The notes beneath the pieces are model-generated. The model had not been told where the DNA came from. It searched no databases and saw only the letters and a program-made list of their open reading frames with translations. Below, piece by piece: positions 6,624-18,831 of a stretch of 64,000 nucleotides of DNA. Within the stretch, counting starts at the first letter, position 1. The number at the start of each line of letters is the position of its first letter. Where the stretch lies: positions 1-64,000 of the IMG/VR virus record IMGVR_UViG_3300027320_000006. The stretch is one strand, 5' to 3'. Position numbers and translations under genes: made by a program. This DNA is from a virus.

Positions 6624-6659
6624 CTGCAGGTTAGGGCTGTTTACAGACCTAAGACACAG
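6624..6659. repeat. 36-nt palindromic element, copy 1 (variant)
   Basis: CTGCAGG flank, then TTAGGGCTG-TTTA-CAGACCTAA, then GACACAG. A diverged stem copy. Confidence 0.85.
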
Positions 6660-6674
6660 CTTTAAATAAAAAGA

Positions 6675-6703
6675 AATATCCCTTGACAATGATCAAGGGA
6701 TAT
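6675..6703 (-). terminator. Terminator of gene 6711-6968
   Basis: ATATCCCTTGA/TCAAGGGATAT hairpin with a T-rich tail on the minus strand. It is the same hairpin used by the plus-strand cassettes. Confidence 0.8.
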
Positions 6704-6710
6704 GATAAGT

Positions 6711-6968
6711 CTAGTCGATACAAACAAACCCGCATTGCATAAGATTGTATAGCGAGTATTCCTTCAGATCGCTTTTAATTTGTTCACCATTAGCAACAGA
6801 TTCCAAGAAACCATTAAGGCTACGAATGAAAGCGAATTTTTGGATAATCGGTTTTGTAATGTTATCACTGTATGTAAACCGCTCCAAGAACTCATTCACG
6901 TCACCCTGATCCATCTCAATAGCTGTAAAGATATTGGATGCATCTACATAGTGCAATTGTTCAATCAT
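6711..6968 (-). CDS. Small cassette protein, unknown
   Basis: 85 residues starting MIEQLHYVDASNIFTAIEMD. It is acidic, probably helical, with no known motif. It has its own sigma-70-like promoter (6992-7019) and terminator, and 36-nt palindromes lie on both sides (6624 and 7043). This is the standard one-gene cassette layout of the region. Confidence 0.72.
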   Translation of the reverse strand: MIEQLHYVDASNIFTAIEMDQGDVNEFLERFTYSDNITKPIIQKFAFIRSLNGFLESVANGEQIKSDLKEYSLYNLMQCGFVCID

Positions 6969-6991
6969 CTGACTATCTCACTTTCAATATA

Positions 6992-7019
6992 ATAATATCA
7001 TATGCTACATAGGATGCAA
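6992..7019 (-). promoter_or_regulatory. Promoter of 6711-6968
   Basis: TTGCAT, 16 bp including TAGCATATGA, TATTAT. Nearly identical to the orphan promoter near 38.99 kb. Confidence 0.75.
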
Positions 7020-7042
7020 ATTAATTATCTTATTATTTAACA

Positions 7043-7078
7043 CTGCAGGTTAGGCTTGTTTACAAGCCTAAGACACAG
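7043..7078. repeat. 36-nt palindromic element, copy 2
   Basis: CTGCAGG flank, arms TTAGGCTTG/CAAGCCTAA, loop TTTA, GACACAG flank. Confidence 0.92.
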
Positions 7079-7101
7079 CAGATAATAATATAAATTCAGT
7101 G

Positions 7102-7130
7102 TTGCATATGTTATTTAAATGATGTAATAT
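7102..7130 (+). promoter_or_regulatory. Promoter of 7166-7405
   Basis: TTGCAT, 17 bp, TAATAT. The spacer is almost identical to that of the promoter of gene 14796-15092. Confidence 0.8.
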
Positions 7131-7165
7131 AGGTATGTAGGCTCCAGTCTACAAGGAGAAACCAG

Positions 7166-7405
7166 ATGCAGGAAATTTTGAGCAAAACCTATGCGGAATT
7201 GACCTCTGACAAAGAACGGGGTCTGGCTAGTGATGAAATAACCAAATTCGTTGAAGCGACAAAGGAGCGTAATATCCACTATGTAACTCCAGAGGGCGAG
7301 GAAACCCCTGTAGAATGGCTTAACCTCCCAGTCACCTACATCCGCTTTAGAATTTTCTGGCAGTTGTTCAAAAACGGCGGAACTCTTAAAGACACCCTCG
7401 TATAA
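7166..7405 (+). CDS. Small cassette protein, unknown
   Basis: 79 residues with a strong AAGGAG site. It starts MQEILSKTYAELTSDKERG. It has an N-terminal helix and a C-terminal aromatic/basic stretch (TYIRFRIFWQLFKNGG). Codons are more GC-rich than in the tagged cluster, as in several cassette genes. No family is recognised. Confidence 0.75.
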   Translation: MQEILSKTYAELTSDKERGLASDEITKFVEATKERNIHYVTPEGEETPVEWLNLPVTYIRFRIFWQLFKNGGTLKDTLV

Positions 7406-7410
7406 TCTAG

Positions 7411-7446
7411 ATATTCCCTCTGATAAATGTCAGGGGGATTTTTTTA
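7411..7446 (+). terminator. Terminator of 7166-7405
   Basis: Stem TCCCTCTGA/TCAGGGGGA followed by TTTTTTTA. Confidence 0.88.
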
Positions 7447-7453
7447 TTTAACA

Positions 7454-7489
7454 CTGTAGGTTAGGCTTGTTTACAAGCCTAACCTACAG
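7454..7489. repeat. 36-nt palindromic element, copy 3 (perfect)
   Basis: A fully symmetric copy: CTGTAGG and CCTACAG flanks also pair, giving a perfect 16-bp stem with loop TTTA. Confidence 0.93.
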
Positions 7490-7545
7490 CAGATAATAAT
7501 AAGAATGCTATCCAGTTGTTACACACATATTCTGTCAAGTGTGAA

Positions 7546-7650
7546 TACCTCTACAAGGCTCCACAATGACCATACACAAGAGTTATGTATGATATTGAAT
7601 AACTACTTGGTATTGATAAAATCTAGTCTATAATGGCAAAATTTGGTATG
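7546..7650 (+). repeat. ~100-bp non-coding repeat upstream of 7731
   Basis: Shares a diverged ~100-bp sequence with 9453-9552, including CATACACAAGAGTTATG, GATATTGAATAACTA and TAATGGCAAA. No ORF. The two copies sit in the same place, between a palindrome and a promoter. Confidence 0.75.
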
Positions 7651-7671
7651 AAAAATAATTTAAAAATAAAC

Positions 7672-7700
7672 TTGCAAAGCGTGTAATTTAATCCTATACT
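7672..7700 (+). promoter_or_regulatory. Promoter of 7731-8036
   Basis: TTGCAA, 17 bp, TATACT. Confidence 0.8.
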
Positions 7701-7730
7701 AGTATTGTAAGTTGGTTGATAGGAGTTAGC

Positions 7731-8036
7731 ATGAAAGTAGAACAAATTTATCAACGATTATGGGTTAAGTCATTCCCAATCGGTTTTGCGGAGGGTAGGG
7801 CGGAATTTGACAATTTCTGGAATTCGCCTTATTCCGAGTTGCCTGAGCATCGCCAAGCCAAGGCAGTGATATTTTCCAATTTGCTCACGGAAATGGGCAA
7901 TTTCGATTCTTCGTCTTATTATGACGGTGACGAGGACTATAACGATGCGTGTTACGCTCGTGTGCGTGATGCCAAAAACGCAAACCGTAACAGGCTATCG
8001 GAGGATAACCTCTCACTAGCACAAATTTTCGGGTAA
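7731..8036 (+). CDS. Small cassette protein, unknown
   Basis: 101 residues from the ATG at 7731, which is preceded by TAGGAG; an upstream TTG is not needed. It starts MKVEQIYQRLWVKSFPIGF. An aromatic, acidic middle (SSSYYDGDEDYNDACYARV) and a helical C-terminus are visible. No domain is recognised. It is a one-gene unit with promoter 7672 and terminator 8046. Confidence 0.75.
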   Translation: MKVEQIYQRLWVKSFPIGFAEGRAEFDNFWNSPYSELPEHRQAKAVIFSNLLTEMGNFDSSSYYDGDEDYNDACYARVRDAKNANRNRLSEDNLSLAQIFG

Positions 8037-8045
8037 TCCTTATTA

Positions 8046-8084
8046 TATCCCTTGGCGAAAGTCAAGGGATATTTCTTTTTATTT
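8046..8084 (+). terminator. Cassette terminator
   Basis: ATATCCCTTG.../...CAAGGGATAT with TTTCTTTTTATTT tail. Part of a near-identical terminator family in this region. Confidence 0.9.
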
Positions 8085-8088
8085 AACA

Positions 8089-8124
8089 CTGCAGGTTAGG
8101 CTTGTTTACAAGCCTAAGACACAG
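8089..8124. repeat. 36-nt palindromic element, copy 4
   Basis: CTGCAGG flank, TTAGGCTTG-TTTA-CAAGCCTAA, GACACAG flank. Confidence 0.92.
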
Positions 8125-8157
8125 CAGATAATAATAAGATTATTTTTCATAAATTCC

Positions 8158-8186
8158 TTGCAGTCTTGTTTGCAGTGAGATATTAT
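8158..8186 (+). promoter_or_regulatory. Promoter of 8226-8537
   Basis: TTGCAG, 17 bp, TATTAT. Confidence 0.75.
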
Positions 8187-8225
8187 CAGTATGTAGGAAT
8201 TGACCTGCACTGACCGGAGTAACAA

Positions 8226-8537
8226 ATGACCGAACTAAACACCATCACCAAAGAAACCAACGAACTCGTCAAGCAATTGGCAGAAATCGACCTCAAGCTG
8301 TTTCACGCAGAGAATGCCCTTGAAGATGCAAAGGCTCATATTCGCATCACCGTAGACCCAAAGGAATTGGGTAGCAACGAAGCAACCCGTGAGGCTAAAA
8401 TCGACTCCATGGTTGCAGAGCAGGTCAAGGTTGTAAGAGAATTGAAGGCGCAACGTATCATGGTTGTAGCCCGTAAGACAGTAGCGTCCAACTGGTTGTC
8501 TACTGCAAAGGCGATTGTCACAAGCGTACAATCGTAG
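8226..8537 (+). CDS. Coiled-coil cassette protein
   Basis: 103 residues with a CGGAG ribosome site. It starts MTELNTITKETNELVKQLAE. Heptad-like Leu/Ala spacing over residues 5-50 and again 60-85 suggests an antiparallel coiled coil. Codon use is clearly GC-richer than in the flanking AT-rich genes, consistent with recent acquisition. The function is unknown. Confidence 0.78.
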   Translation: MTELNTITKETNELVKQLAEIDLKLFHAENALEDAKAHIRITVDPKELGSNEATREAKIDSMVAEQVKVVRELKAQRIMVVARKTVASNWLSTAKAIVTSVQS

Positions 8538-8576
8538 TCAAGCAAAGGAATATAGCAGAATTTCTGTTATATTCCA

Positions 8577-8612
8577 CTGTTGCTTAGGCTTGTAAACAAG
8601 CCTAACATACAG
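8577..8612. repeat. 36-nt palindromic element, copy 5 (inverted loop)
   Basis: CTGTTGC flank, TTAGGCTTG-TAAA-CAAGCCTAA, CATACAG flank. Confidence 0.9.
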
Positions 8613-8634
8613 CCTTAAATAATAGAATTATAAT

Positions 8635-8663
8635 TTGCATTCTCTCTTGAAATGCTGTAAATT
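8635..8663 (+). promoter_or_regulatory. Promoter of 8717-8959
   Basis: TTGCAT, 17 bp, TAAATT. Confidence 0.75.
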
Positions 8664-8716
8664 AGTATTGTCAGATAATCCTATGATGGAAATTCACTCT
8701 GACCCTAGGTGAAACT

Positions 8717-8959
8717 ATGGAATTCAAAGTTGACGGCAAGCCAGTAGACGTGTGCGCAGACGGTGGATATCCGCTGTTCTACGTCACAACAGACAGATGC
8801 GCTCTCTGTCCTGAATGTGTTAACAAGAATTTGGAATTGTGCAGTGATACAAATGACGACCAATGGTACGTCACACATAGGGACGTTAATTGGGAATCTG
8901 AACAACTATACTGTGAACATTGCAGTCAAAGAATTGATTCCGCATACGGCGAAGACTAA
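8717..8959 (+). CDS. Zinc-ribbon cassette protein
   Basis: 80 residues, ribosome site AGGTG. Cysteine pairs CALCPEC and CEHCSQ frame a short beta-rich middle containing DDQWYVTHRDVNWE, suggesting one zinc site. It starts MEFKVDGKPVDVCADGG. A small DNA- or protein-binding role is possible but not shown. Composition is GC-richer than average. Confidence 0.75.
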   Translation: MEFKVDGKPVDVCADGGYPLFYVTTDRCALCPECVNKNLELCSDTNDDQWYVTHRDVNWESEQLYCEHCSQRIDSAYGED

Positions 8960-8965
8960 ACGATA

Positions 8966-9003
8966 TATTCCCTTGAAGAAATTCAAGGGAATTCTTTTTA
9001 TTT
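8966..9003 (+). terminator. Cassette terminator
   Basis: TTCCCTTGAA/TTCAAGGGAA hairpin, then TTCTTTTTATTT. Confidence 0.88.
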
Positions 9004-9007
9004 AACA

Positions 9008-9043
9008 CTGTGTCTTAGGCTTGTAAACAAGCCTAACCGACAG
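9008..9043. repeat. 36-nt palindromic element, copy 6 (inverted)
   Basis: CTGTGTC flank, TTAGGCTTG-TAAA-CAAGCCTAA, CCGACAG flank. This is essentially copy 2 in reverse orientation. Confidence 0.92.
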
Positions 9044-9076
9044 CAGAAAATAATAGAAATATTATTTAAATATACA

Positions 9077-9105
9077 TTGCATTATGTTGCAATTGCCTGT
9101 AAAAT
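9077..9105 (+). promoter_or_regulatory. Promoter of 9111-9311
   Basis: TTGCAT, 17 bp, TAAAAT. The ATG at 9111 follows after 5 nt, so the transcript is leaderless. It overlaps and excludes the upstream in-frame ATG at 9084. Confidence 0.78.
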
Positions 9106-9110
9106 TAGGT

Positions 9111-9311
9111 ATGAACACAAACACCAGAGTGGAAGTCGAAGAACCGACTGGCCATATGCACTTCTTTACCCTCGGACAGATTGGCATTACCCCGTCAATG
9201 TCCGAAGCAGACATCATCGCACGGTTAGGTAAGAGTATCTATACAGACAGGTTCAAGCACACCTACCATGTGTCTCACAACCTGCTAATAGTCAAAACCC
9301 TACCAGGCTAG
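9111..9311 (+). CDS. Small cassette protein, leaderless start
   Basis: 66 residues starting MNTNTRVEVEEPTGHMHFF. The upstream ATG at 9084 sits inside the promoter, so 9111 is the logical start. The protein is a compact mixed alpha/beta chain ending HVSHNLLIVKTLPG. No family is recognised. Terminator 9316-9354 follows directly. Confidence 0.72.
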   Translation: MNTNTRVEVEEPTGHMHFFTLGQIGITPSMSEADIIARLGKSIYTDRFKHTYHVSHNLLIVKTLPG

Positions 9312-9315
9312 TACC

Positions 9316-9354
9316 ATATCCCTTGATGAAAATCAAGGGATATTTCTTTTTATT
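9316..9354 (+). terminator. Cassette terminator
   Basis: ATATCCCTTGA/TCAAGGGATAT hairpin with T-rich tail. Confidence 0.9.
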
Positions 9355-9359
9355 TAACA

Positions 9360-9395
9360 CTGTGTCTTAGGCTTGTAAACAAGCCTAACCGACAG
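9360..9395. repeat. 36-nt palindromic element, copy 7 (inverted)
   Basis: Same as copy 6: CTGTGTC flank, TAAA loop, CCGACAG flank. Confidence 0.92.
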
Positions 9396-9452
9396 CAGAT
9401 AATAATAAGATTATTCATTAAATCAATTACAGGATAATCTAACAAATACAAA

Positions 9453-9552
9453 TGCCTCTGTAAGCCCCTACAATGCTCATACACAAGAGTTATGAATGAT
9501 ATTGAATAACTATATGGTAATGAATAAATAAAGCCTGTAATGGCAAATATGA
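9453..9552 (+). repeat. Second copy of the ~100-bp non-coding repeat
   Basis: Diverged copy of 7546-7650 (CATACACAAGAGTTATG, GATATTGAATAACTA, TAATGGCAAA). No ORF. Confidence 0.75.
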
Positions 9553-9572
9553 GAATAGAATAAAATTATTTA

Positions 9573-9601
9573 TTGCAATGTTTGTAAATTCACTGTAACA
9601 T
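9573..9601 (+). promoter_or_regulatory. Promoter of 9608-10087
   Basis: TTGCAA, 17 bp, TAACAT. ATG 9608 lies exactly 6 nt further, giving a leaderless mRNA. Confidence 0.78.
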
Positions 9602-9607
9602 ACAGGC

Positions 9608-9862
9608 ATGAAAACTCAAACTCCTGCACCAGCACTTTCTGGGCATCTTTGCGTCTCAAATTATAATGACATCCAACATTTGGATGCTTACCTTGAATTC
9701 CCTTTTAGTGGAAATTCTGTTGAACTTTGGAAATTAGCCGCCGTGAAATTCCAAGAGTACTACGCTATGGGTTGGACTCCTGCTATATATTTCAAGAATC
9801 ACAAACAACATATTTCACTTCAAATCAGTGCTGAAGACATTGATATGATAATGGCATTGTAA
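9608..9862 (+). CDS. Small cassette protein, leaderless start
   Basis: 84 residues starting MKTQTPAPALSGHLCVSNYN. It is a mixed alpha/beta protein with an aromatic middle (FQEYYAMGWTPAIYFKNH). No domain is recognised. It is co-transcribed with 9872-10087, which follows after 9 nt. Its ATG coincides with the expected transcription start. Confidence 0.72.
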   Translation: MKTQTPAPALSGHLCVSNYNDIQHLDAYLEFPFSGNSVELWKLAAVKFQEYYAMGWTPAIYFKNHKQHISLQISAEDIDMIMAL

Positions 9863-9871
9863 ATTATAATT

Positions 9872-10087
9872 ATGAAAAACACTTCAATCAACCAATTCGT
9901 CGATGAAAACGTCAACAGTGCTACAGGCTCACACTACAAGGCTTACGTTGTGTATGCTTTGAAAGACTTGGTAAGCCAATATCCAACAAAGCAACTTTCA
10001 GAGTTGCTCCCATATGCAACAGAATATGCAAACGAACAATGGGAAAAAAACAAAGATTACCTACACTTCAACAGAGTGTATTCATAG
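9872..10087 (+). CDS. Small cassette protein of a three-member family
   Basis: 71 residues starting MKNTSINQFVDENVNSATGS. It shares its plan with 10297-10503 and 11501-11668: an MK/EN.T start, a hydrophobic F(V) at 9-13, an acidic helix ending in A.E.W, and a C-terminal YF/HF motif. No ribosome site is evident, so translation may be coupled to 9608-9862. The function is unknown. Confidence 0.72.
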   Translation: MKNTSINQFVDENVNSATGSHYKAYVVYALKDLVSQYPTKQLSELLPYATEYANEQWEKNKDYLHFNRVYS

Positions 10088-10092
10088 AAATC

Positions 10093-10132
10093 ATATCCCT
10101 TGATGAAAGTCAAGGGATATTTCTTTTTATTT
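10093..10132 (+). terminator. Cassette terminator
   Basis: ATATCCCTTGA/TCAAGGGATAT hairpin with T-rich tail. Confidence 0.9.
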
Positions 10133-10136
10133 AACA

Positions 10137-10172
10137 CTGCAGGTTAGGCTTGTTTACAAGCCTAAGGCACAG
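10137..10172. repeat. 36-nt palindromic element, copy 8
   Basis: CTGCAGG flank, TTTA loop, GGCACAG flank. Confidence 0.92.
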
Positions 10173-10192
10173 CAGATAATAATAAGAATAAT

Positions 10193-10239
10193 GATCAGGA
10201 TCCGATCACTAGCGTGGATCTCTATCACAGATCCGATCA
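10193..10239. promoter_or_regulatory. Cluster of six GATC sites
   Basis: GATC occurs at 10193, 10199, 10204, 10217, 10230 and 10235, and GATCCGATCA is repeated at 10199 and 10230. It lies just upstream of the 10261 promoter. The window encodes a Dam-type methylase (20396-21253). An operator or methylation-sensitive site is inferred. Confidence 0.5.
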
Positions 10240-10260
10240 GTTGTCAAGAAAAATAATAAA

Positions 10261-10290
10261 TTGGCAGAATGTAGAATTATATTGTAAACT
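10261..10290 (+). promoter_or_regulatory. Promoter of 10297-10503
   Basis: TTGGCA, 18 bp, TAAACT. ATG follows after 6 nt (leaderless). Confidence 0.65.
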
Positions 10291-10296
10291 ATAGTC

Positions 10297-10503
10297 ATGA
10301 AAACCACTCCTACTATCGATCAGTTTGTCTGGTCACACGTCACAGGCGAGTCTGCATACAAAACTTTGGTGTCAGCAGAACTTTATTACATGAAGATCAA
10401 ATTTCCAGAACAAACTCTGGAAGATCTTCTGCAAGACGCAGAAGAAAAAGCCCTTGAAGCATGGGACAGCGAACAAAACGCAGACTACTTTCAAGGAGAG
10501 TAA
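10297..10503 (+). CDS. Small cassette protein of a three-member family, leaderless
   Basis: 68 residues starting MKTTPTIDQFVWSHVTGESA. Paralogous by eye to 9872-10087 and 11501-11668; it ends ADYFQGE, compared with SEYFQG in 11501-11668. It is acidic and helical. The ATG lies at the predicted transcription start. The GATC cluster directly upstream suggests added control of this cassette. Confidence 0.74.
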   Translation: MKTTPTIDQFVWSHVTGESAYKTLVSAELYYMKIKFPEQTLEDLLQDAEEKALEAWDSEQNADYFQGE

Positions 10504-10511
10504 TCCTTATC

Positions 10512-10551
10512 ATATCCCTTGATGAAAATCAAGGGATATTTCTTTTTATTT
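10512..10551 (+). terminator. Cassette terminator
   Basis: ATATCCCTTGA/TCAAGGGATAT hairpin with T-rich tail. Confidence 0.9.
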
Positions 10552-10555
10552 AACA

Positions 10556-10591
10556 CTGCAGGTTAGGCTTGTAAACAAGCCTAAGACACAG
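10556..10591. repeat. 36-nt palindromic element, copy 9 (flipped core)
   Basis: Flanks are in the CTGCAGG/GACACAG orientation but the loop is TAAA rather than TTTA, as if only the core had inverted. Confidence 0.92.
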
Positions 10592-10624
10592 CAGAAAATA
10601 ATAAGATTATTATTAACATATTTC

Positions 10625-10653
10625 TTGCAATCAGCCTCATAATGCTGTAAATT
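10625..10653 (+). promoter_or_regulatory. Promoter of 10678-10929
   Basis: TTGCAA, 17 bp, TAAATT. Confidence 0.78.
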
Positions 10654-10677
10654 GATAGTGAAAGGTTGGTAACGAAG

Positions 10678-10929
10678 ATGGAAAGTTTCTATGAACAGCT
10701 GTATCGGAGTAATCAAGAAAAGAATTTTGATTACTTGTTTCGTTTGGGATATATGGAAGCATCGATATATAGACTTAAGAGTCTTATCGAGAGCGGTAGA
10801 ATCAAGGCAGACAAGTATGACACTGCTACACTTATTGAAATCGCAAATGTTTTTGAAACTGCAAAGCAAGAATCGATAAAGCACAAAGAAGCGATTGAAG
10901 AATTAAAGGCAAAACAAGCCTCCCTCTAA
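10678..10929 (+). CDS. Small helical cassette protein
   Basis: 83 residues starting MESFYEQLYRSNQEKNFDYL. It is almost entirely helical with a C-terminal charged coiled-coil-like segment (HKEAIEELKAKQASL). No domain is recognised. The ATG at 10678 is preferred over the TTG 12 nt upstream. Terminator 10934-10974 follows. Confidence 0.72.
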   Translation: MESFYEQLYRSNQEKNFDYLFRLGYMEASIYRLKSLIESGRIKADKYDTATLIEIANVFETAKQESIKHKEAIEELKAKQASL

Positions 10930-10933
10930 TGAC

Positions 10934-10974
10934 CATATCCCTTGATGAAAGTCAAGGGATATTTCTTTTTATTT
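10934..10974 (+). terminator. Cassette terminator
   Basis: ATATCCCTTGA/TCAAGGGATAT hairpin with T-rich tail. Confidence 0.9.
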
Positions 10975-10978
10975 AAGG

Positions 10979-11014
10979 CTGTATCTTAGGTTTGTAAACA
11001 AACCTAACCTCCAG
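10979..11014. repeat. 36-nt palindromic element, copy 10
   Basis: Arm variant TTAGGTTTG-TAAA-CAAACCTAA with a compensatory change on both sides. Flanks CTGTATC and CCTCCAG. Confidence 0.92.
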
Positions 11015-11042
11015 TGTTAAATAAAAGAAACAAGGTTGTAGC

Positions 11043-11363
11043 CTATGCTACAACCTTGCCCAAGAGGTCTTTGTTTTTGAGTAAGTCTTCAGTTAACTTT
11101 GGAAATTCATTAACCATCTGATTATAATGTCCCGGTTCTACATCAGCGAGGAAAGTTTCAAAAGTTTCCCGTGCATTGTTGATGTGGTTTTCTAAAGTTG
11201 TCAGGTCTTCGCAGAATTCATCTCTCCAAGACCAATCTGAAATATGGCTGACAGTTATACCGCATACAGACAAAGCAAAGTAATTGATAATTCGCATCCA
11301 TTGACGATAAGTTAATTCTACCTTGGTCTTTTTAGTGACAGGCTTGATAGTAGTGTTTTCCAT
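11043..11363 (-). CDS. Cassette protein, leaderless minus-strand gene
   Basis: 106 residues from ATG 11363 (MENTTIKPVTKKTKVEL). A longer frame starting at 11381 would overlap the -10 box, so it is not used. The protein has a basic N-terminus, a WMRIINYFALSVCG segment and an acidic helical C-terminus. No family is recognised. Its last codons form the hairpin CAAGGTTGTAG/CTACAACCTTG (11031-11058), so the terminator overlaps the coding end. Confidence 0.75.
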   Translation of the reverse strand: MENTTIKPVTKKTKVELTYRQWMRIINYFALSVCGITVSHISDWSWRDEFCEDLTTLENHINNARETFETFLADVEPGHYNQMVNEFPKLTEDLLKNKDLLGKVVA

Positions 11364-11369
11364 ACCTGT

Positions 11370-11398
11370 ATGATAAGCCATATTTTGATATATTGCAA
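11370..11398 (-). promoter_or_regulatory. Promoter of 11043-11363
   Basis: TTGCAA, 17 bp, TATCAT, then 6 nt to the ATG. Confidence 0.78.
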
Positions 11399-11421
11399 AT
11401 TATATTTCTTATTATTTAAGG

Positions 11422-11457
11422 CTGTATCTTAGGTTTGTAAACAAACCTAACCTCCAG
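11422..11457. repeat. 36-nt palindromic element, copy 11
   Basis: Identical core and flanks to copy 10. Confidence 0.92.
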
Positions 11458-11462
11458 TGTTA

Positions 11463-11492
11463 AATAAAAAAACCCTGATGTTATTCAGGGTT
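11463..11492 (-). terminator. Terminator of 11501-11668
   Basis: AACCCTGA/TCAGGGTT hairpin with TTTTTTTATTTA on the minus strand. Confidence 0.85.
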
Positions 11493-11500
11493 GTATATTA

Positions 11501-11668
11501 TTAGCCTTGGAAATATTCAGATTCTACATAAGAATCCCATCGTTCATATGCTAATTCTATCGCTTGTTCCATGAGGTTTTCTTTGGACATATCAGGGTGT
11601 TGTTTTGACAACTCTTCAAAAGCTTGTGTAACGAAGAGTGAGAACATTGGGCTTGTAGTGTTTTCCAT
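11501..11668 (-). CDS. 55-residue cassette protein of a three-member family
   Basis: A short gene: MENTTSPMFSLFVTQAFEEL, then helical acidic sequence ending SYVESEYFQG. It resembles 9872-10087 and 10297-10503. It has its own promoter (11675-11703), and the ATG is exactly 6 nt past the -10 (leaderless). A terminator follows. The first residues MENTT match those of neighbour 11043-11363. Confidence 0.72.
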   Translation of the reverse strand: MENTTSPMFSLFVTQAFEELSKQHPDMSKENLMEQAIELAYERWDSYVESEYFQG

Positions 11669-11674
11669 GTTTAT

Positions 11675-11703
11675 ATATTATCAAACAAAACAAGCCTTTG
11701 CAA
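11675..11703 (-). promoter_or_regulatory. Promoter of 11501-11668
   Basis: TTGCAA, 17 bp, TAATAT, 6 nt, ATG. Confidence 0.8.
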
Positions 11704-11710
11704 TATAATT

Positions 11711-12019
11711 TTATTGTGGAGCGTTTATCTTATCAAGGTATTTACACAACAGGCTTTTATGTTCTTGGTGTGATATTGATAGAACAATTCCGATAGGGAA
11801 ACACATCACTCCCCAAAGGTTCCACAAGAAGAACATATCTGGGAAATCACGATGCAATACAAAAGTGATAACTTTGGTTACAACAGCAAGACCTAGAATA
11901 GCCGTAGAAACCATTCCGATAGCAGTCATAGAACCTGCTCCAACCATATGAAACAATACATAGTAGGAAATGAATAGTCCTACAGGTATCAGCACTAGTA
12001 ACAATCTGACAAAATCCAT
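11711..12019 (-). CDS. Small integral membrane protein
   Basis: 102 residues with a TAGGAG site. Three hydrophobic segments are visible: ~4-27 (LLLVLIPVGLFISYYVLF), ~31-52 (AIGMVSTAILGLAVVTKV) and ~64-82 (FLWNLWGVMCFPIGIVLSI). The C-terminus is short and charged. It is an inner-membrane protein of unknown role. Promoter TTGCAT, 16 bp, TATTAT at 12041-12068. Confidence 0.8.
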   Translation of the reverse strand: MDFVRLLLVLIPVGLFISYYVLFHMVGAGSMTAIGMVSTAILGLAVVTKVITFVLHRDFPDMFFLWNLWGVMCFPIGIVLSISHQEHKSLLCKYLDKINAPQ

Positions 12020-12040
12020 TGTTTTATTTCTCCTACATCT

Positions 12041-12068
12041 ATAATATCACGCCAGAAATAAAATGCAA
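12041..12068 (-). promoter_or_regulatory. Promoter of 11711-12019
   Basis: TTGCAT, 16 bp, TATTAT. Confidence 0.75.
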
Positions 12069-12070
12069 AT

Positions 12071-12129
12071 AAAAAAAGGTTGCTATCTTTTTAAGGGACA
12101 GCAACCGAGTAACATGAAAACCTATGAAC
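12071..12129 (-). ncRNA. Candidate ~59-nt small RNA
   Basis: A minus-strand promoter (TTGCTA, 17 bp, TATAAT at 12136-12164) is followed within ~60 nt by a terminator (GGTTGCT/AGCAACC then seven T, 12071-12106). No reading frame closes before the terminator. It looks like a self-contained small-RNA unit. The target is unknown. Confidence 0.5.
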
Positions 12130-12163
12130 ATCTGTATTATAGGACATCAAACATAATATAGCA

Positions 12164-12203
12164 AGAGAAAAGACAAGGTATTTTTTTACCTTGTCTTTTC
12201 TCT
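12164..12203. repeat. 17-bp perfect hairpin
   Basis: AGAGAAAAGACAAGGTA and its exact complement are separated by six T. It lies upstream of a strong ribosome site and a 19-codon frame. It could be a terminator or a regulatory hairpin. Confidence 0.7.
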
Positions 12204-12225
12204 TTTGAAAGGAGATAACAAACAG

Positions 12226-12285
12226 ATGTCAGTATCGAACATCAAGTGTATTATATCAGCATTTAAGGTTATTGCAAAGTATTAG
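12226..12285 (+). CDS. Possible 19-residue peptide
   Basis: ATG with an AAAGGAG site upstream encodes MSVSNIKCIISAFKVIAKY then stop. It is short and amphipathic or hydrophobic, like small membrane-active peptides. ACATCTGT upstream (12129-12136) could pair with ACAGATGT over the start codon. Weak support; may be chance. Confidence 0.25.
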   Translation: MSVSNIKCIISAFKVIAKY

Positions 12286-12300
12286 TATAACAATTAAAGT
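12272..12300 (+). promoter_or_regulatory. Promoter of 12324-12740
   Basis: TTGCAA, 17 bp, TAAAGT. Confidence 0.6.
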
Positions 12301-12323
12301 AAAATATAAATAGAGGTACTATT

Positions 12324-12740
12324 ATGACGACAATCTTAGCAATGTTAAGTATATCATTACTTTTTGCCATTTATGTAATTATTCAGCATAAGAAAGATAA
12401 CCTTTCTCTAATGAAATTGAATAATATTGTATCTGAGCAAATAACAGAATTAAGAGCAAAGAATTCATCTCTTTGGGCTGATATTAATAAACTGTCCCAT
12501 GAATCAGATGAAATGAATTTTAAATTACAAGAGATATTAAATAAACAGGAAAAAGTATTAATCGAACCCGGTCTCAAAGTAAAGTGGATAGATAAATCTG
12601 GGGAAGAAGAGTTTGGTATTGTTTATGATAGTTTTAACACATCTAATAATCATTTAGTGGTGGTTAGAGGTCTTAAAAAAAATAAACCTACTGGACGTTA
12701 TTTCACAGTAGGTTTTGATAAGATTACTATTATTGATTAA
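12324..12740 (+). CDS. Membrane-anchored coiled-coil protein
   Basis: 138 residues. A single N-terminal transmembrane helix (residues 3-22, LAMLSISLLFAIYVIIQ) is followed by a coiled coil (~30-80, EQITELRAKNSSLWADIN). A small beta-rich C-terminal domain follows (LKVKWIDKSGEEEFGIVYD). The topology resembles phage membrane regulators, but no family is recognised. It is convergent with 12730-13236 and overlaps it by 11 nt. Confidence 0.78.
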   Translation: MTTILAMLSISLLFAIYVIIQHKKDNLSLMKLNNIVSEQITELRAKNSSLWADINKLSHESDEMNFKLQEILNKQEKVLIEPGLKVKWIDKSGEEEFGIVYDSFNTSNNHLVVVRGLKKNKPTGRYFTVGFDKITIID

Positions 12741-13236
12741 CTTCTTTTAATCTCATAATGGAATAATTATCTTTGGGATATTTTTTAAGGGCGAGGATAC
12801 AATAATCCTTCGCTCTTATTTTTTCTTTATTCTTGATACATAATGCTACAAGAGAATTATATGTAGATGCTGGACAATCTTTCCATCGAACAGCACTCTC
12901 ATAATATCTAATGGCTAATCTTTCATCTTTAACCATAGAACGATATACAATGCCTAAATATTCGTAAGACCTATAACCATTAGGCATTACTGATAGATAT
13001 CTCTTAGCAAATTTCTCTGCCTCTAACAATAATCCAGTATCTTTATTATTAATTGATAAAGACCAGAACAGCCAAATCATATTCTCCCAAGCATCTCTAT
13101 CTTTGGGATTAAGTTTTAACACTTCTTTATATAAGTTAATAATCTTTGGATAATCACCAGTATTTGTATCTGTACCATGCCAAAGTGTTTCTATAGTTTT
13201 ATATAGATATTTTAATTTTTGTTCAGACGTTTGCAT
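12730..13236 (-). CDS. TPR-like helical repeat protein
   Basis: 168 residues. Repeated helix pairs with TPR spacing are visible: YKEVLKLNPKDRDAWENMIW, LLEAEKFAKRYLSVMPNGY, AIRYYESAVRWKDCPASTYN and AKDYCILALKKYPKDNYS. These occur about every 36-40 residues, with Pro/Asn turns. Such folds bind partner proteins. It is the last gene of a three-gene minus-strand operon (13895 to 12730). Confidence 0.82.
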   Translation of the reverse strand: MQTSEQKLKYLYKTIETLWHGTDTNTGDYPKIINLYKEVLKLNPKDRDAWENMIWLFWSLSINNKDTGLLLEAEKFAKRYLSVMPNGYRSYEYLGIVYRSMVKDERLAIRYYESAVRWKDCPASTYNSLVALCIKNKEKIRAKDYCILALKKYPKDNYSIMRLKEVNQ

Positions 13237-13567
13237 TCTTCTCTAAATCCAATTCTTCATTTTCGTTGTAATACATTGTTAAAATTTTACTAGATACATT
13301 TAGAGGTAATTTATCAATGTCCTTAACCATACCCATTAGAATCTTTTCTTTTTGGTATCCCTCATAAATAGTTCTACGTCTCTTTTGAGAATTGTCCCAT
13401 TGATAAATAAAGAAATGCATCTCGTTTATCAATTCACTATGGGAATATTCAATAAGATAAGTTCCATCCTTAAGTATAAAAGCATCAATCCCTGAAATAA
13501 TATCAGAACCGGACATTTCATAGCCTGTTCCTGTTTTAGAGAAATAAATCCAAACTTTAGATTCCAT
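13223..13567 (-). CDS. Beta-rich protein of unknown function
   Basis: 114 residues starting MESKVWIYFSKTGTGYEMSG. Alternating strands with aromatic residues are visible (YLIEYSHSELINEMHFFIYQ). The end is acidic (NENEELDLEKNANV). It overlaps the TPR gene by 14 nt and lies 1 nt after 13569-13895, so it is translationally coupled. No family is recognised. Confidence 0.75.
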   Translation of the reverse strand: MESKVWIYFSKTGTGYEMSGSDIISGIDAFILKDGTYLIEYSHSELINEMHFFIYQWDNSQKRRRTIYEGYQKEKILMGMVKDIDKLPLNVSSKILTMYYNENEELDLEKNANV

Positions 13568-13568
13568 G

Positions 13569-13895
13569 TTACATTTTACCAGACTTGAGATATTTCTGGT
13601 ATATTTTGTTGTAATATTCCCAGAGATATTTTGCTCCGTTACTTGATATATTGTGAGAAATGTGATATTCTGATAGTAACTCTAAATTTGCATCCTTGTC
13701 TCTCATCATACTGTAGAACTTTTGATGCTTTTTTCTGTCTATCATCGAAACGTTCATAAATCTTTTCGAAATAGATACGAACTCGATATTCGAATTTCTT
13801 TTTCCTTTTAATTGGATTGCGAATTTGATATCGAAATTTCCAATGTTCAAATAACACTCTCGAATTATTTTATCTATCCATTGTTTTTCATTCAT
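13569..13895 (-). CDS. Unknown basic protein, first gene of a TPR operon
   Basis: 108 residues starting MNEKQWIDKIIRECYLNIGN. It is rich in Lys, Ser and Tyr with mixed alpha/beta pattern (FDIKFAIQLKGKRNSNIEFV). A TATAAT box lies only a few nt upstream, next to palindrome copy 12. No family is recognised. Confidence 0.72.
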   Translation of the reverse strand: MNEKQWIDKIIRECYLNIGNFDIKFAIQLKGKRNSNIEFVSISKRFMNVSMIDRKKHQKFYSMMRDKDANLELLSEYHISHNISSNGAKYLWEYYNKIYQKYLKSGKM

Positions 13896-13906
13896 ATTAT
13901 ATTCTA

Positions 13907-13942
13907 CTGTATGTTAGGCTTGTTTACAAGCCTAAGCACCAG
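13907..13942. repeat. 36-nt palindromic element, copy 12
   Basis: CTGTATG flank, TTAGGCTTG-TTTA-CAAGCCTAA, GCACCAG flank. Confidence 0.9.
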
Positions 13943-13954
13943 TGTTAAATAAAA

Positions 13955-13986
13955 AGAATCCCTTGCTACTCGAACAAGGGATTTAA
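13955..13986 (-). terminator. Terminator of 14011-14595
   Basis: AATCCCTTG/CAAGGGATT hairpin with a T-rich minus-strand tail. Confidence 0.75.
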
Positions 13987-14010
13987 GAGTGAACAGGAAA
14001 GTTCTACAGA

Positions 14011-14595
14011 TTACAGCTTTTTCGACAGATTATGAAATTCAGCACAATCCATCAACACCTCTCGAACGGTGTTTTCGATTTCCTTGCTAGTAAAACTACA
14101 GTCGGAAATCATAATGACATTCTTGCCGATTCTAACTTGATTGAAACCGTGACTCGAATTCTCACGATTTACAACAACATGGAAAATACGCTTCAGGTCA
14201 TCGTACAAGCCGGAGTCATTACAAGAAACAAATGTAAGGTGGGTGAAATGAGTTTCCTTGGATGCTCGAATTGTTTCATACCAGAAATTCTTGTGGAACC
14301 ATTTCTTTGATGCATCCGCTCCGCTCTCACAATGAACCCGTGTAATCATAAGGATAGGGTCATTGTCCATCGTTACAACACCTTCACCGGTGTATCGAAT
14401 ACCCGTGCCAAAGTCGATAAGACCAAGACCTCCGGGATAGTCCACACTCGAAATTTTGGTTTTGAATCCAATGGTAGGATAATGCTTAGATGCTTCCTGT
14501 ACATAATGGTCAACAATGTGACCGAGTGCCAACATCTGCTGAACGCTCTGAGGATGAGCCGTTCCTCTTGAGCCGGGTTGAATTCCGATTGCCAT
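14011..14595 (-). CDS. Cassette protein of unknown function, GC-richer
   Basis: 194 residues with a CGGAG site. It starts MAIGIQPGSRGTAHPQSVQQ. A Gly-rich beta segment (YPGGLGLIDFGTGIRYTGEG), an ILMITRVHCESGADASKKWF segment and a helical C-terminus are visible. No catalytic motif is recognised. Composition is GC-richer than the AT-rich operon beside it. It has its own promoter (14634-14662), a terminator and palindromes on both sides. Confidence 0.78.
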   Translation of the reverse strand: MAIGIQPGSRGTAHPQSVQQMLALGHIVDHYVQEASKHYPTIGFKTKISSVDYPGGLGLIDFGTGIRYTGEGVVTMDNDPILMITRVHCESGADASKKWFHKNFWYETIRASKETHFTHLTFVSCNDSGLYDDLKRIFHVVVNRENSSHGFNQVRIGKNVIMISDCSFTSKEIENTVREVLMDCAEFHNLSKKL

Positions 14596-14633
14596 CTTTG
14601 TTACTATCTCCGTGTAGAATTTATCTACAACGT

Positions 14634-14662
14634 ATTATAGGCTAACAGATGCTATAGTGCAA
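14634..14662 (-). promoter_or_regulatory. Promoter of 14011-14595
   Basis: TTGCAC, 17 bp, TATAAT. Confidence 0.78.
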
Positions 14663-14706
14663 GGGGTGATGTAGAAATAAATTGATGATAATCTTATTAT
14701 TTTCTA

Positions 14707-14742
14707 CTGAAGGTTAGGTTTGTTTACAAACCTAAGATACAG
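14707..14742. repeat. 36-nt palindromic element, copy 13
   Basis: CTGAAGG flank, TTAGGTTTG-TTTA-CAAACCTAA, GATACAG flank; compensatory stem change as in copies 10, 11 and 14. Confidence 0.92.
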
Positions 14743-14757
14743 CCTTAAATAAAAAGA

Positions 14758-14786
14758 ATCCCTCTGAATTTCTCCAGAGGGTTTTA
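14758..14786 (-). terminator. Terminator of 14796-15092
   Basis: AACCCTCTGGA/TCCCTCTGAA-type hairpin with ATTCTTTTTATTT on the minus strand. Confidence 0.75.
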
Positions 14787-14795
14787 CTAAGTATC

Positions 14796-15092
14796 TTACA
14801 ATGTATTTTTGTAAGATACTTCACCGCCCCAACAAGAGAATTCTGCCGGGTCTTCAGTGTACAGCAGACGCATCAGTCTGCCCAAGGAGCCACCGTTCGT
14901 TACGGTTTGCTTTATCAGGTCGCAGAATCCTTCTCCACACTGGTAGATGTAAACTTTGCGACTTTTGTTAAATTCTACGTAGACACAATCCTCTACGATT
15001 GCCAATGCTTTTACAGCGGTGGATTTGACCAAGGTCATTTCCAAGACGGGGATATATTGGAACGAGGCGTTCCATGTGGTTTCTAGGCTCAT
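14796..15092 (-). CDS. KTSC-like small protein, leaderless
   Basis: 98 residues starting MSLETTWNASFQYIPVLEMT. The middle (VEFNKSRKVYIYQC, then a helix ending NGGSLGRLMR) resembles the beta-beta-alpha KTSC domain (V.F..G..Y.Y..). The ATG lies 6 nt after the -10 TAAGAT (leaderless). The KTSC assignment is tentative; the domain's function is unknown in any case. Confidence 0.68.
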   Translation of the reverse strand: MSLETTWNASFQYIPVLEMTLVKSTAVKALAIVEDCVYVEFNKSRKVYIYQCGEGFCDLIKQTVTNGGSLGRLMRLLYTEDPAEFSCWGGEVSYKNTL

Positions 15093-15098
15093 GTCTCT

Positions 15099-15127
15099 AT
15101 CTTACAGCATTTAAATAACATATGCAA
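15099..15127 (-). promoter_or_regulatory. Promoter of 14796-15092
   Basis: TTGCAT, 17 bp, TAAGAT, 6 nt, ATG. The spacer is nearly identical to that of the 7102-7130 promoter. Confidence 0.8.
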
Positions 15128-15202
15128 CACTAAAAAATAAATTTGACAAAATAGATTTTTCGTGATAGCGATCCGATCGTTACAGAATTCTATTATTTAA
15201 GG

Positions 15203-15238
15203 CTGTATCTTAGGTTTGTAAACAAACCTAACCGCCAG
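15203..15238. repeat. 36-nt palindromic element, copy 14
   Basis: CTGTATC flank, TTAGGTTTG-TAAA-CAAACCTAA, CCGCCAG flank. A GATCCGATCG motif lies just upstream at 15170-15179. Confidence 0.92.
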
Positions 15239-15320
15239 TAAAAAATAATTGAAATATTTTCTTGACAAAGCTGGGAATGTGTGGTCAAACAGGGAGGGGT
15301 TTCCCCCTCCCTCCCAAGCC

Positions 15321-16646
15321 CTACCCGATGTACACATACTGCTCTACGGTACGGGCATCAAGCGTGGATGCCTTGTTGGATTCGGTGTTCCAACGCTTGC
15401 GGATGGCATCCAAGGTCGCATCGATGGCAGGTGCGAGAATGATGGATGCGGTCGTTTCCATGTGTTCACGCATATGCCCTGTGTAGCCCTGTGCAGACCG
15501 TGTAAGACCGTTGACGATGCCGAATGCGGTACGGTCGGATACCTCACCGTTTGGCTCTTGTAGGGTCTCCAAGTAGCCCTTGTGCCATGCCTTACCTTGT
15601 TCCACGGTCATCTTGTGGTCACGGGCAAACAGTGCAATTGTCTGCTCTACGTTTTTGACCGTTACCTGCTTGGAGTAGCCCATCAAGGTTAACATATCGT
15701 TACCTTCGGTAAGGGCTACGCCGATGGCATGGGCAACGCTTTGCTTAAGGTCATCCTTGTTGATGATACCTAAGTGCTTTTTGTTCACGCCGATGGCAGA
15801 TGTACGCCGTCCCCAAATCATTCCGTTAAGGCAGATGGCACGGAATAAGAATGGTGCAATGGTAAACGCCGACTTGCGAATCTCGCTGTTGCGGAATGAG
15901 ATGCCAACACCGTAGTCGGAATCCGGTTGACTTTTCATGTGGTCGGGCAACAGAATGTTACCGATGACCGAATCACCGTCATTCCACCAGTGTGATGCAA
16001 GAGCGTCCTGCAACGATGGCAAAGCGTCAATTACCATCCCTAGTGCTTCATCGTTATCTATGACCCCGTAGCGGTCAGATACGATAGCCCGGACGATATC
16101 CGAACCATCATCGGTCTTACGGCAACGTAGGCGGAATTCTTTGCCCGCACGATAATCTGCCGACCGGCGGTTAAGACCGTCATTGATGTAGCGTACAAGG
16201 TCACCAGTGTAACCATGCTCCAATTGGAATTCCACGGTTTTGCCCGGTACGGCAGGGTTGTTGACGTTACCGGTAAGCAAACGCAGAGCCTCCAAGCCGG
16301 ATTCGTTAATAGGTGTTCCGTTCACCAGTTTGAACGGTTCGACCAAGCGTACCTGCTCTTCTGGTACAGTAAGGTCAAACTTTGTTGTTGCTTCCTGCTT
16401 GATGACGGTGTATGCATCGTCAAGTGAGATGCACTTGTCCTGCCATACCTTAGCAACGTGGCGGTGCGCTTCCGTGCTTGCCAAGCCGATAGCGTTTACC
16501 CAATTGCCGTTGGTGTCCTGCTTTGCAACAGAATCAGGACGAACCTGCAAACCGGTCTCATTGCCGAATACAGAATTGTTTGGTTGTGCTACAGGCACAG
16601 CATCGCCAAATTCGATGAACGATGCACGGTTGTTGTTATCTGACAT
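15321..16646 (-). CDS. DUF932-family phage/plasmid protein
   Basis: 441 residues. The central part (AIVSDRYGVIDNDEALGMV near 195-215, then VGISFRNSEIRKSAFTIAPF and RAICLNGMIWG) carries the hallmark blocks of DUF932 proteins, common on phages and plasmids and of unknown function. Full family length is present. It is the most GC-rich gene in the window, with codon use unlike its AT-rich surroundings, which suggests transfer from a higher-GC genome. The 5' UTR has a hairpin GTCGCA/TGCGAC ahead of GAGGAG. Promoter at 16684-16711. Confidence 0.85.
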   Translation of the reverse strand: MSDNNNRASFIEFGDAVPVAQPNNSVFGNETGLQVRPDSVAKQDTNGNWVNAIGLASTEAHRHVAKVWQDKCISLDDAYTVIKQEATTKFDLTVPEEQVRLVEPFKLVNGTPINESGLEALRLLTGNVNNPAVPGKTVEFQLEHGYTGDLVRYINDGLNRRSADYRAGKEFRLRCRKTDDGSDIVRAIVSDRYGVIDNDEALGMVIDALPSLQDALASHWWNDGDSVIGNILLPDHMKSQPDSDYGVGISFRNSEIRKSAFTIAPFLFRAICLNGMIWGRRTSAIGVNKKHLGIINKDDLKQSVAHAIGVALTEGNDMLTLMGYSKQVTVKNVEQTIALFARDHKMTVEQGKAWHKGYLETLQEPNGEVSDRTAFGIVNGLTRSAQGYTGHMREHMETTASIILAPAIDATLDAIRKRWNTESNKASTLDARTVEQYVYIG

Positions 16647-16683
16647 TTTCCAAATCTCCTCGTCGCAACGGGTGCGACATAGA

Positions 16684-16711
16684 ATTATATCATTCTTCGC
16701 CAGTGTAGCAA
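16684..16711 (-). promoter_or_regulatory. Promoter of the DUF932 gene
   Basis: TTGCTA, 16 bp, TATAAT. Confidence 0.75.
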
Positions 16712-16751
16712 GATTATATTTATATTAACTTTCCATTAAACGTCCGGCTCT

Positions 16752-16761
16752 AACCGACAGT
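16752..16761. repeat. Remnant of a 36-nt element (right half)
   Basis: AACCGACAGTG followed by TAATATAA matches the right edge of copies 6/7 and the downstream context of copy 15; the left half is missing. Confidence 0.45.
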
Positions 16762-16805
16762 GTAATATAACAGGAATTGTTGGGAACGATTCTTATTATT
16801 TAAGG

Positions 16806-16841
16806 CTGTAGGTTAGGCTTGTTTACAAGCCTAAGTACCAG
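16806..16841. repeat. 36-nt palindromic element, copy 15
   Basis: CTGTAGG flank, TTAGGCTTG-TTTA-CAAGCCTAA, GTACCAG flank. Confidence 0.92.
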
Positions 16842-16878: not shown

Positions 16879-17301
16879 ATGTTATTAAAAAACAGAATCT
16901 GGTACATGATTGAAAATGGTGAAGACGTATTCCCCAAGAAGATTATGAATAAATTACCAAGAGTAGATGCTGACCCTGTTTATTGTTATTTAAAAATATC
17001 TAGTATGGCTACGTATACAGATTTTTATATTGCTGGAGGTTCTTGGGTTGATAAATATAATAACCGTCTCTCCTGTCAATATTCTAACGTAAAAAGAGCC
17101 AAGAGTTTAGGAGCAGTAGAGTATTTATTAAATGTAATCATAGACGAGGGTATTTGGTATCAGAATCAAATACCATTAACATTTTTTTATTCTCATACTC
17201 CTGACAGTGTTTGGTCTGCTGGTAATAAAATCTGGGTTACTAAGAAAGAAGATTTTAATCTAGGTTTAATTGTAGGACAGAAAGTTATAAAGCGGTCATG
17301 A
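16879..17301 (+). CDS. Unknown protein encoded ahead of RusA
   Basis: 140 residues from ATG 16879 (MLLKNRIWYMIENGED); a TTG at 16864 would add five. Mixed alpha/beta with aromatic strands (CYLKISSMATYTDFYIAGG). TATAAA lies 6 nt before the ATG, so this gene may also be leaderless. It overlaps the RusA gene by 4 nt (ATGA), so the two are coupled. No family is recognised. Confidence 0.7.
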   Translation: MLLKNRIWYMIENGEDVFPKKIMNKLPRVDADPVYCYLKISSMATYTDFYIAGGSWVDKYNNRLSCQYSNVKRAKSLGAVEYLLNVIIDEGIWYQNQIPLTFFYSHTPDSVWSAGNKIWVTKKEDFNLGLIVGQKVIKRS

Positions 17302-18089: not shown

Positions 18090-18128
18090 GTATGTAAGTC
18101 TCTTCAAACTTACAAATCTATTATACCA

Positions 18129-18260: not shown

Positions 18261-18267
18261 ATTATTA

Positions 18268-18576: not shown

Positions 18577-18599
18577 AGGATTATCTTTTTAAATAATAA

Positions 18600-18625: not shown

Positions 18626-18634
18626 GGCAAAACC

Positions 18635-18830: not shown

Positions 18831-18831
18831 A

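Follow-up and report, generated by a model that had tools for sequence, protein, structure and literature searches.

The window analysed here is a 64,000-nt stretch of DNA (positions 1 to 64,000) that forms part of a 92,358-bp virus record, IMGVR_UViG_3300027320_000006, which we call G000. Fifteen copies of a palindromic element lie in it between 6.6 and 16.8 kb, and they divide this region into an array of cassettes of one to few genes. An earlier note on this DNA had given 15 copies, their coordinates and a fixed length of 36 nt; all 15 were found, and each is exactly 36 nt long. From left to right they are:

Element 1, 6624-6659, + strand: in a tandem minus-strand spacer at the array's left end; arms diverged (GGGCTG/CAGACC), loop TTTA.
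Element 2, 7043-7078, + strand: loop TTTA; divergent genes on either side.
Element 3, 7454-7489, + strand: loop TTTA; sole copy complementary across the full 36 nt outside the loop.
Element 4, 8089-8124, + strand: loop TTTA.
Element 5, 8577-8612, − strand: loop TAAA; flanks those of element 2 in inverted form.
Element 6, 9008-9043, − strand: full 36-mer inverted inside the outer flanks of element 4.
Element 7, 9360-9395, − strand: 36-mer identical to element 6.
Element 8, 10137-10172, + strand: loop TTTA.
Element 9, 10556-10591, + strand: flanks of elements 2 and 4; loop inverted, TAAA.
Element 10, 10979-11014, − strand: T-type arms (TTAGGTTTG/CAAACCTAA); convergent spacer with a terminator on each side.
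Element 11, 11422-11457, − strand: 36-mer identical to element 10.
Element 12, 13907-13942, + strand: right edge of a low-GC resident block; start codon 11 nt away.
Element 13, 14707-14742, + strand: T-type arms.
Element 14, 15203-15238, − strand: T-type arms.
Element 15, 16806-16841, + strand: divergent genes; right end of the array, GC back to the phage average.

The element is confined to this array. In G001, another assembly of this phage (165,921 bp, 99.96% identical to G000), all 15 copies recur with unchanged spacing, in an array without any difference from that of the window. The two assemblies were merged into a phage genome of ~167 kb, and a search of this whole genome found no copy outside 6.6-16.8 kb. 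In a pattern search 14 copies fit TTRGGCTTGNNNNCAAGCCYAA at three mismatches or fewer, where shuffled sequences predict 0.03. Exact and degenerate patterns for the window element matched only the same phage in IMG/VR and nothing in the GTDB species genomes. A looser half-element pattern brought up 13 other contigs, which we rejected: all were chance or coding matches, and none was palindromic.

The consensus of the element is CTGNNNN-TTAGGCTTG-TWWA-CAAGCCTAA-NNNNCAG. Its outermost triplets, CTG at the start and CAG at the end, are invariant in 15 of 15 copies, a feature absent from the earlier note. That note had given each copy the same arms, which holds for the ten with TTAGGCTTG/CAAGCCTAA but not for the four T-type copies (10979, 11422, 14707 and 15203), nor for the copy at 6624, which is more diverged than described (CTGCAGGTTAGGGCTGTTTACAGACCTAAGACACAG, one stem pair mismatched). 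The compensatory change reported for the T-type copies is indeed present on both arms in all four. The loop is TTTA in eight copies and TAAA in seven; the self-complementary forms TATA and TTAA are never used. At 10556 the loop alone is inverted relative to 7043 and 8089, with flanks alike, and at 9008 and 9360 the entire 36-mer is flipped relative to 8089, with outer flanks unchanged. A/T-rich sequence extends outward on both sides, typically TTATTTAACA before CTG and TGTTAAATAA after CAG, and with these outer parts the symmetric unit measures ~60-66 nt. Folded as single-stranded DNA, the elements are strongly stable (z = −4.2 to −8.4). The NNNN flanks are complementary in only one of the 15 copies (element 3, 7454), and arm-to-arm repair alone was therefore dropped as the cause of perfect pairing in the adjoining arms.

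Twelve of the spacers that hold an element are tandem, one is convergent (10979) and two are divergent (7043 and 16806). A hairpin followed by a T-tract stands on most gene-end sides, as a rule 13-17 nt away from the 36-mer; gene-start sides mostly carry a sigma70-like promoter (typically TTGCAN-17-TAnnnT) between the element and the start codon. The earlier description of most copies as followed by a promoter and preceded by a terminator is thus right for most spacers. The exceptions are 16806 on its right and 13907 on its left, where the gene 13569-13895 starts only 11 nt from element 12 and has no other promoter. Automatic calling failed on the terminator sides of 7454, 8577 and 10979; at 10979 a hairpin (11031-11058) overlaps the end of the gene. 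As an intrinsic terminator the palindrome itself was ruled out: no T-tract follows the 36-mer (CAGATAATAA/TGTTAAATAA follows instead), and the true terminator is a separate, adjoining hairpin. A sigma70 promoter inside the palindrome was also dropped, the loop making a poor −10. That the palindrome lies between transcription units in tandem, convergent and divergent spacers alike argues for a role at the level of DNA. As terminator and promoter lie outside it, it looks like a DNA element and not like the terminator stem-loop itself.

Among the cassettes are those of three paralogous proteins, the A1 family. The cassettes of the array are listed here with their counterparts in other viral contigs, which are denoted by G and L numbers:

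6711-6968, − strand: cassette gene between elements 1 and 2; weak similarity to G002 array genes.
7166-7405, + strand: cassette gene, function unknown.
7716-8036, + strand: cassette gene, function unknown.
8226-8537, + strand: cassette gene, function unknown.
8717-8959, + strand: cassette gene; family phrog_18238/18452, in many unrelated large phages.
9111-9311, + strand: cassette gene; 83% amino-acid identity to a G004 array gene; start set by the promoter, the called open reading frame running from 9084.
9608-10087, + strand: cassette of two genes, 9608-9862 and 9872-10087, of which the latter belongs to the A1 family.
10297-10503, + strand: cassette gene, A1 family; the route to the relatives.
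10666-10929, + strand: cassette gene, function unknown.
11043-11363, − strand: cassette gene; 88% amino-acid identity to a G004 array gene.
11501-11668, − strand: cassette gene, A1 family; adjoined upstream by the low-GC, element-free block.
14011-14595, − strand: cassette gene; its distant homologue is a relocated cassette in L033, L035 and L042.
14796-15092, − strand: cassette gene; phrog_4357.
15321-16646, − strand: cassette gene, DUF932 family; GC 0.515.

The element-bounded genes are compositionally foreign. Their G+C content at third codon positions is 0.32-0.60, whereas 190 other genes of the phage average 0.22 (Mann-Whitney p = 2e-10). Along the sequence, G+C content (GC) climbs at the first element, dips at 11.7-13.5 kb, climbs again and reaches the phage average past the last element. 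The block at 11.7-13.5 kb is free of elements, and its genes resemble the resident genes of relatives.

Two smaller features of the cassettes concern their gene starts. Predicted −10 boxes lie 5-6 nt before the ATG at 9111, 9608, 10297, 11363 and 11668, which suggests leaderless mRNAs, and G004 array genes have the same short spacing. A similar untranslated leader of ~100 nt (ACACAAGAGTTATG..ATGATATTGAATAACTA..) stands in two different cassettes (7490-7700 and 9396-9600), as if leader and gene had recombined.

Alignment of the three A1-family proteins led to 12 other viral contigs, one of them 358 kb long. Every one has the same kind of array, and these arrays are at the same genomic position as that of the window, judged by shared flanking genes. 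As close-range queries, DUF932, a 194-amino-acid cassette protein and rIIA returned the same phage only; the phage and plasmid collections held only distant DUF932 proteins, and no match to a 68-amino-acid cassette protein.

The earlier note saw one highly uniform kind of element. It was wrong on this count: each phage lineage carries its own palindrome. The type 2 palindrome, AGGNNNGGTNNNNACCNNNCCT (AGG-NNN-GG-TNNNNA-CC-N'N'N'-CCT), is present in about 17 contigs after a further scan, with 18 copies within 154-181 kb of G002 and 15 in G007. Its NNN positions comprise ten different triplets and pair perfectly in 57 of 57 copies, and in 69 of 69 in a larger set. The search pattern leaves NNN free, so this pairing is not imposed by the search; when arms are shuffled between partners, 8.3 of 57 are complementary on average and 19 at most. 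Pairing is kept by changes on both arms, and far more strongly in the relatives than in the window alone. Nearly invariant TTG and CAA boxes lie 12 nt outside AGG/CCT. Offset by 9 nt from AGG stands TTTAACA in the window and TTTGACA in the relatives, which suggests that the window element and the type 2 element are of common descent. Type 3 spans 68 bp and recurs about 28 times within 35 kb of G004; its sequence is TTTATTAAC...TAAnAAATn...nATTTnTTA...GTTAATAAA.

Cassettes have moved between these relatives. G002 and G007 differ in the position or orientation of blocks that comprise one to few cassettes each. In coordinates numbered from a stretch of G002 starting at 140,001, three blocks are inverted (18047-18826, 18819-19177 and 19620-20395) and two lie elsewhere (25307-25920 and 25878-26356); most block ends lie 5-85 nt from an element centre. 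Three junctions were mapped. Cassette order is X-B-A in L033 and X-A-...-B in L035. In the first of two L033 junctions, L031-like sequence makes up the left flank and both arms, around an inverted loop, and cassette B supplies the right flank; at the second, the switch falls just right of the palindrome. L042 is without two cassettes found in L035, and its junction falls just left of the palindrome. All three fall in or just beside the palindrome, at no constant base. Across alignments, 46% of ends lie within 60 nt of elements, against 18% expected. The real evidence for shuffling is the three mapped junctions together with the moved and inverted blocks. The earlier note had proposed a gene-cassette array with exchange and a comparison of cassette order between relatives; by that comparison, the proposal stands, as the relatives' cassettes are relocated, inverted and lost between elements.

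Because the sole close relative of the window phage is its second assembly, with an identical array, we infer exchange in the window's own array from its foreign composition and from two cassettes common to the G004 lineage. Cassette 11023-11398 matches G004 47895-48276 with an identity of 83% in DNA and 88% in protein, and cassette 9097-9349 matches G004 46187-46437 with 78% in DNA and 83% in protein; in the same comparison, identity is 30-67% for most other proteins common to the two phages. For both cassettes the homology takes in promoter, gene and terminator and goes no further than the element's edge, so that cassettes appear to cross lineages with the palindrome either not carried along or overwritten afterwards.

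On balance we favour the view that small, probably early, genes form a shuffled array here and that the elements are its orientation-neutral joints. Each module would be a self-contained transcription unit (sigma70-like promoter, one or few genes and intrinsic terminator). The joints would be symmetrical A/T-rich spacers, each centred on a palindrome able to form a hairpin. Because the joint is nearly identical on both strands, any two joints could pair in either orientation, and modules could thereby be lost, gained, moved or inverted with none left without promoter or terminator. The palindrome itself may promote the exchange, most likely by extrusion of a hairpin or cruciform, which would then fall to the general recombination and junction-resolving enzymes of phage or host and not to a conventional site-specific recombinase. 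Inversions of the loop alone and of the whole 36-mer are the traces expected if a hairpin extrudes, and the preservation of pairing while arm sequence changes counts in favour of exchange promoted by the palindrome, as do the strong single-strand folding and the lack of complementarity in nearly all NNNN flanks. The phage encodes RuvB-like and RusA-like proteins. A more specific version seems to us doubtful as yet: a cassette-exchange system in which some structure-specific nuclease or recombinase would recognise the palindromes by structure, not sequence, for swap, inversion and acquisition, with palindromes homogenised within lineages and cassettes shared between them.

Several observations weigh against shuffling joints. 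The enrichment of alignment ends is partly trivial, as spacers evolve fast and nearly all of them hold an element; with an element in nearly every gap, any gene-level rearrangement will break near one. The junctions lie on either side of the palindrome, with no constant base, and the palindrome itself may or may not be cut. No relative has a rearranged form of the window's own array. A tyrosine recombinase (PF00589) was not found in G000, G001, G002, G004 and G007, records that are fragmentary, and an integrase could act in trans; nor did these five records yield a Y1 (HUH) transposase (PF01797). A search for a serine resolvase/invertase (PF00239) likewise found none, again in records that are all fragments. 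Moreover, a conserved palindrome with outer CTG/CAG or TTG/CAA boxes resembles a protein-binding site.

That resemblance underlies the main alternative, in which the palindrome binds a dimeric or tetrameric phage or host protein, as an insulator, operator, roadblock or stoperator-like site, and shuffling is a by-product of repeated spacers. We hold this to be unlikely but worth serious attention. Perfect dyad symmetry and the fixed 36-nt length fit it well, as do the boxes, set at a constant interval from the inner arms (CTG/CAG invariant in the window, TTG/CAA nearly so in the relatives) and the constant position between transcription units; lineage-specific sequences could follow a lineage-specific protein. 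What such a protein would not need is the free yet symmetrical variation of the three middle arm positions in the relatives (69/69, ten triplets), as it would be reading sequence. The distance from element to early promoter also varies, from about 24 to 180 nt, and no candidate regulator was identified. Less probable again is a dedicated recombinase or nuclease of an unrecognised kind that uses the palindromes as sites, in the manner of integrons or pdif modules. It would explain why a discrete 36-mer is inverted as a unit, why the window loop is always asymmetric and why cassettes are relocated precisely. One candidate is the Zn-ribbon/VSR-like endonucleases encoded at the side of the array, whose genes adjoin it in the window, L033, L035, L038, L042, G006 and G007 but were not found beside the G002 and G004 arrays. 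The endonuclease resembles ordinary free-standing phage endonucleases, however, and its fold match to VSR (1cw0/1vsr) is weak (E 0.026, predicted local distance difference test score 71); known recombinase families were not detected, and the junctions, as said, lack a constant base.

The two remaining alternatives concern transcription. The A/T-rich outer parts might be outward promoters, with the palindrome binding an activator or polymerase, as with the repeats of halovirus HF2 (PMC8707807). A box, (A/T)ATAAT, does lie ~5 nt outside the 36-mer on gene-start ends (AATAAA on terminator ends), TATAATA is enriched upstream of phage genes, and the gene beside element 12 has nothing else to serve as promoter. 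We give this little credence all the same: nearly all gene-start sides have a separate sigma70-like promoter, and the outer box is not kept in the relatives, which have TTTGACA/TGTCAAA there. Least credible is an RNA hairpin acting as terminator, processing site or protector of mRNA 3' ends. Conserved stem pairing is what it would predict, but with terminators upstream and promoters downstream the palindrome falls outside transcripts, divergent spacers included; no U-tract follows it, G-U intermediates are missing from the arms of both window and type 2 elements, and no Rfam family is significant in the array.

How do such joints compare with known systems? Integron attC sites and pdif modules divide cassette arrays by inverted-repeat sites, and attC sites are conserved in structure. 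Here, by contrast, no tyrosine recombinase was found in the records searched, cassettes have their own promoters and terminators, and there is no single crossover base. The order TTAGGC...GCCTAA is inside out with respect to the RYYYAAC...GTTRRRY of attC, and it is in this inside-out order that GTTAGGC resembles the R box; identity with attC was dropped for the wrong box order and the lack of an integrase. REP/RAYT and IS200/IS605 hairpin elements differ in that their Y1 transposase was not found in the five records, and invertible or resolvable sites of serine recombinases in that no such enzyme was detected in the fragmentary records searched.

The earlier note had likened the elements to the promoter/stem-loop elements (PeSLs) of T4-like phages. 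These are composite spacers of terminator and early promoter between small genes, which shuffle modules and are dense where shuffling is intense (PMC4503421). We compared them (Arbiol et al. 2010; Comeau et al. 2014) through descriptions in citing papers. At that level the likeness is a terminator stem-loop and an early promoter in one spacer, seen on most sides here, and the shuffling of flanking genes between arrays, seen directly in the relatives and indirectly only in the window array. The difference from the PeSLs so described is an extra palindrome between terminator and promoter, lineage-specific, fixed in length and with covarying arms. The comparison is apt in its logic, but the phage may or may not be of T4 type and the palindrome is separate from terminator and promoter. 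The gp23 profile PF07068 has no match in the phage and none in the controls either, which makes it uninformative, and the rIIA homologue of the phage is only ~27% identical to those of T4-like phages. PeSLs are the nearest known kind, and the separate, lineage-specific palindrome conserved in structure would be, to our knowledge, an added part.

Other phages offer more distant comparisons. In the Campylobacter group II phages CP21, CP220 and CPt10, repeat regions lie between modules that are inverted or reordered among relatives (PMC4546147), but those regions are 1-2.9 kb long, consist of many 72-86 bp units and separate modules of 28-55 kb, whereas here a single short palindrome lies between single genes. 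Haloviruses HF1 and HF2 have short repeats (29 or 56-58 bp) with A/T-rich motifs that are restricted to intergenic spacers (PMC8707807); these carry promoters and are not described there as palindromic joints. The stoperators of cluster A mycobacteriophages are asymmetric sites at which a monomeric repressor stops transcription, with many copies over the genome (PMC9283540, PMC6550527). Many copies of a short site in a phage genome are common to both, binding being putative here; our element, unlike theirs, is a palindrome and lies beyond the terminator.

How large phages gain, lose and reorder many small genes whose function is unknown, often for host takeover or counter-defence, is poorly understood. 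In these arrays the joints are directly visible, in three sequence versions in different lineages, and cassettes are shared where the joint sequence is not. Cassette exchange thus becomes testable, and AGGNNNGGTNNNNACCNNNCCT between terminator and promoter gives a handle for finding such arrays. The question also arises whether an enzyme recognises a hairpin that varies in sequence but not in pairing, and if so which.

Several features lie around the array. Directly to its right is the gene of the RusA-like Holliday-junction resolvase (17298-17654). Two paralogues encoded just to its left (3349-4188 and 5037-5963) combine a VSR-like endonuclease domain with treble-clef/Zn-ribbon modules; of the nine arrays compared, seven have homologues beside them, in which there can be several Zn modules.

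Further to the right, at 22661-22961, a stretch of ~270 nt without a called gene has counterparts in G004 (92.6% identity) and in G002 and G007 (about 87%), a level far above the protein identity between these phages. The stretch matched no Rfam family and nothing in the phage collection, and its folding energy is not unusual on either strand; it is a candidate non-coding RNA or conserved DNA site, new to the databases searched. Three more stretches with little or no called gene (24183-24319, 25539-25666 and 25713-25789) are 82-90% identical to G004, G002 or G007 and lie near the tRNA cluster. Rfam found a sixth tRNA, on the minus strand at 25598-25667, that ARAGORN did not find. Lastly, a protein family with the shared N-terminal stretch MNKKQILASLNKIANxLDxxGLYxEA is encoded by tandem open reading frames in 189-4906 and near the arrays of most relatives; in L038 (508-1392) there is a 195-nt tandem repeat at this place.

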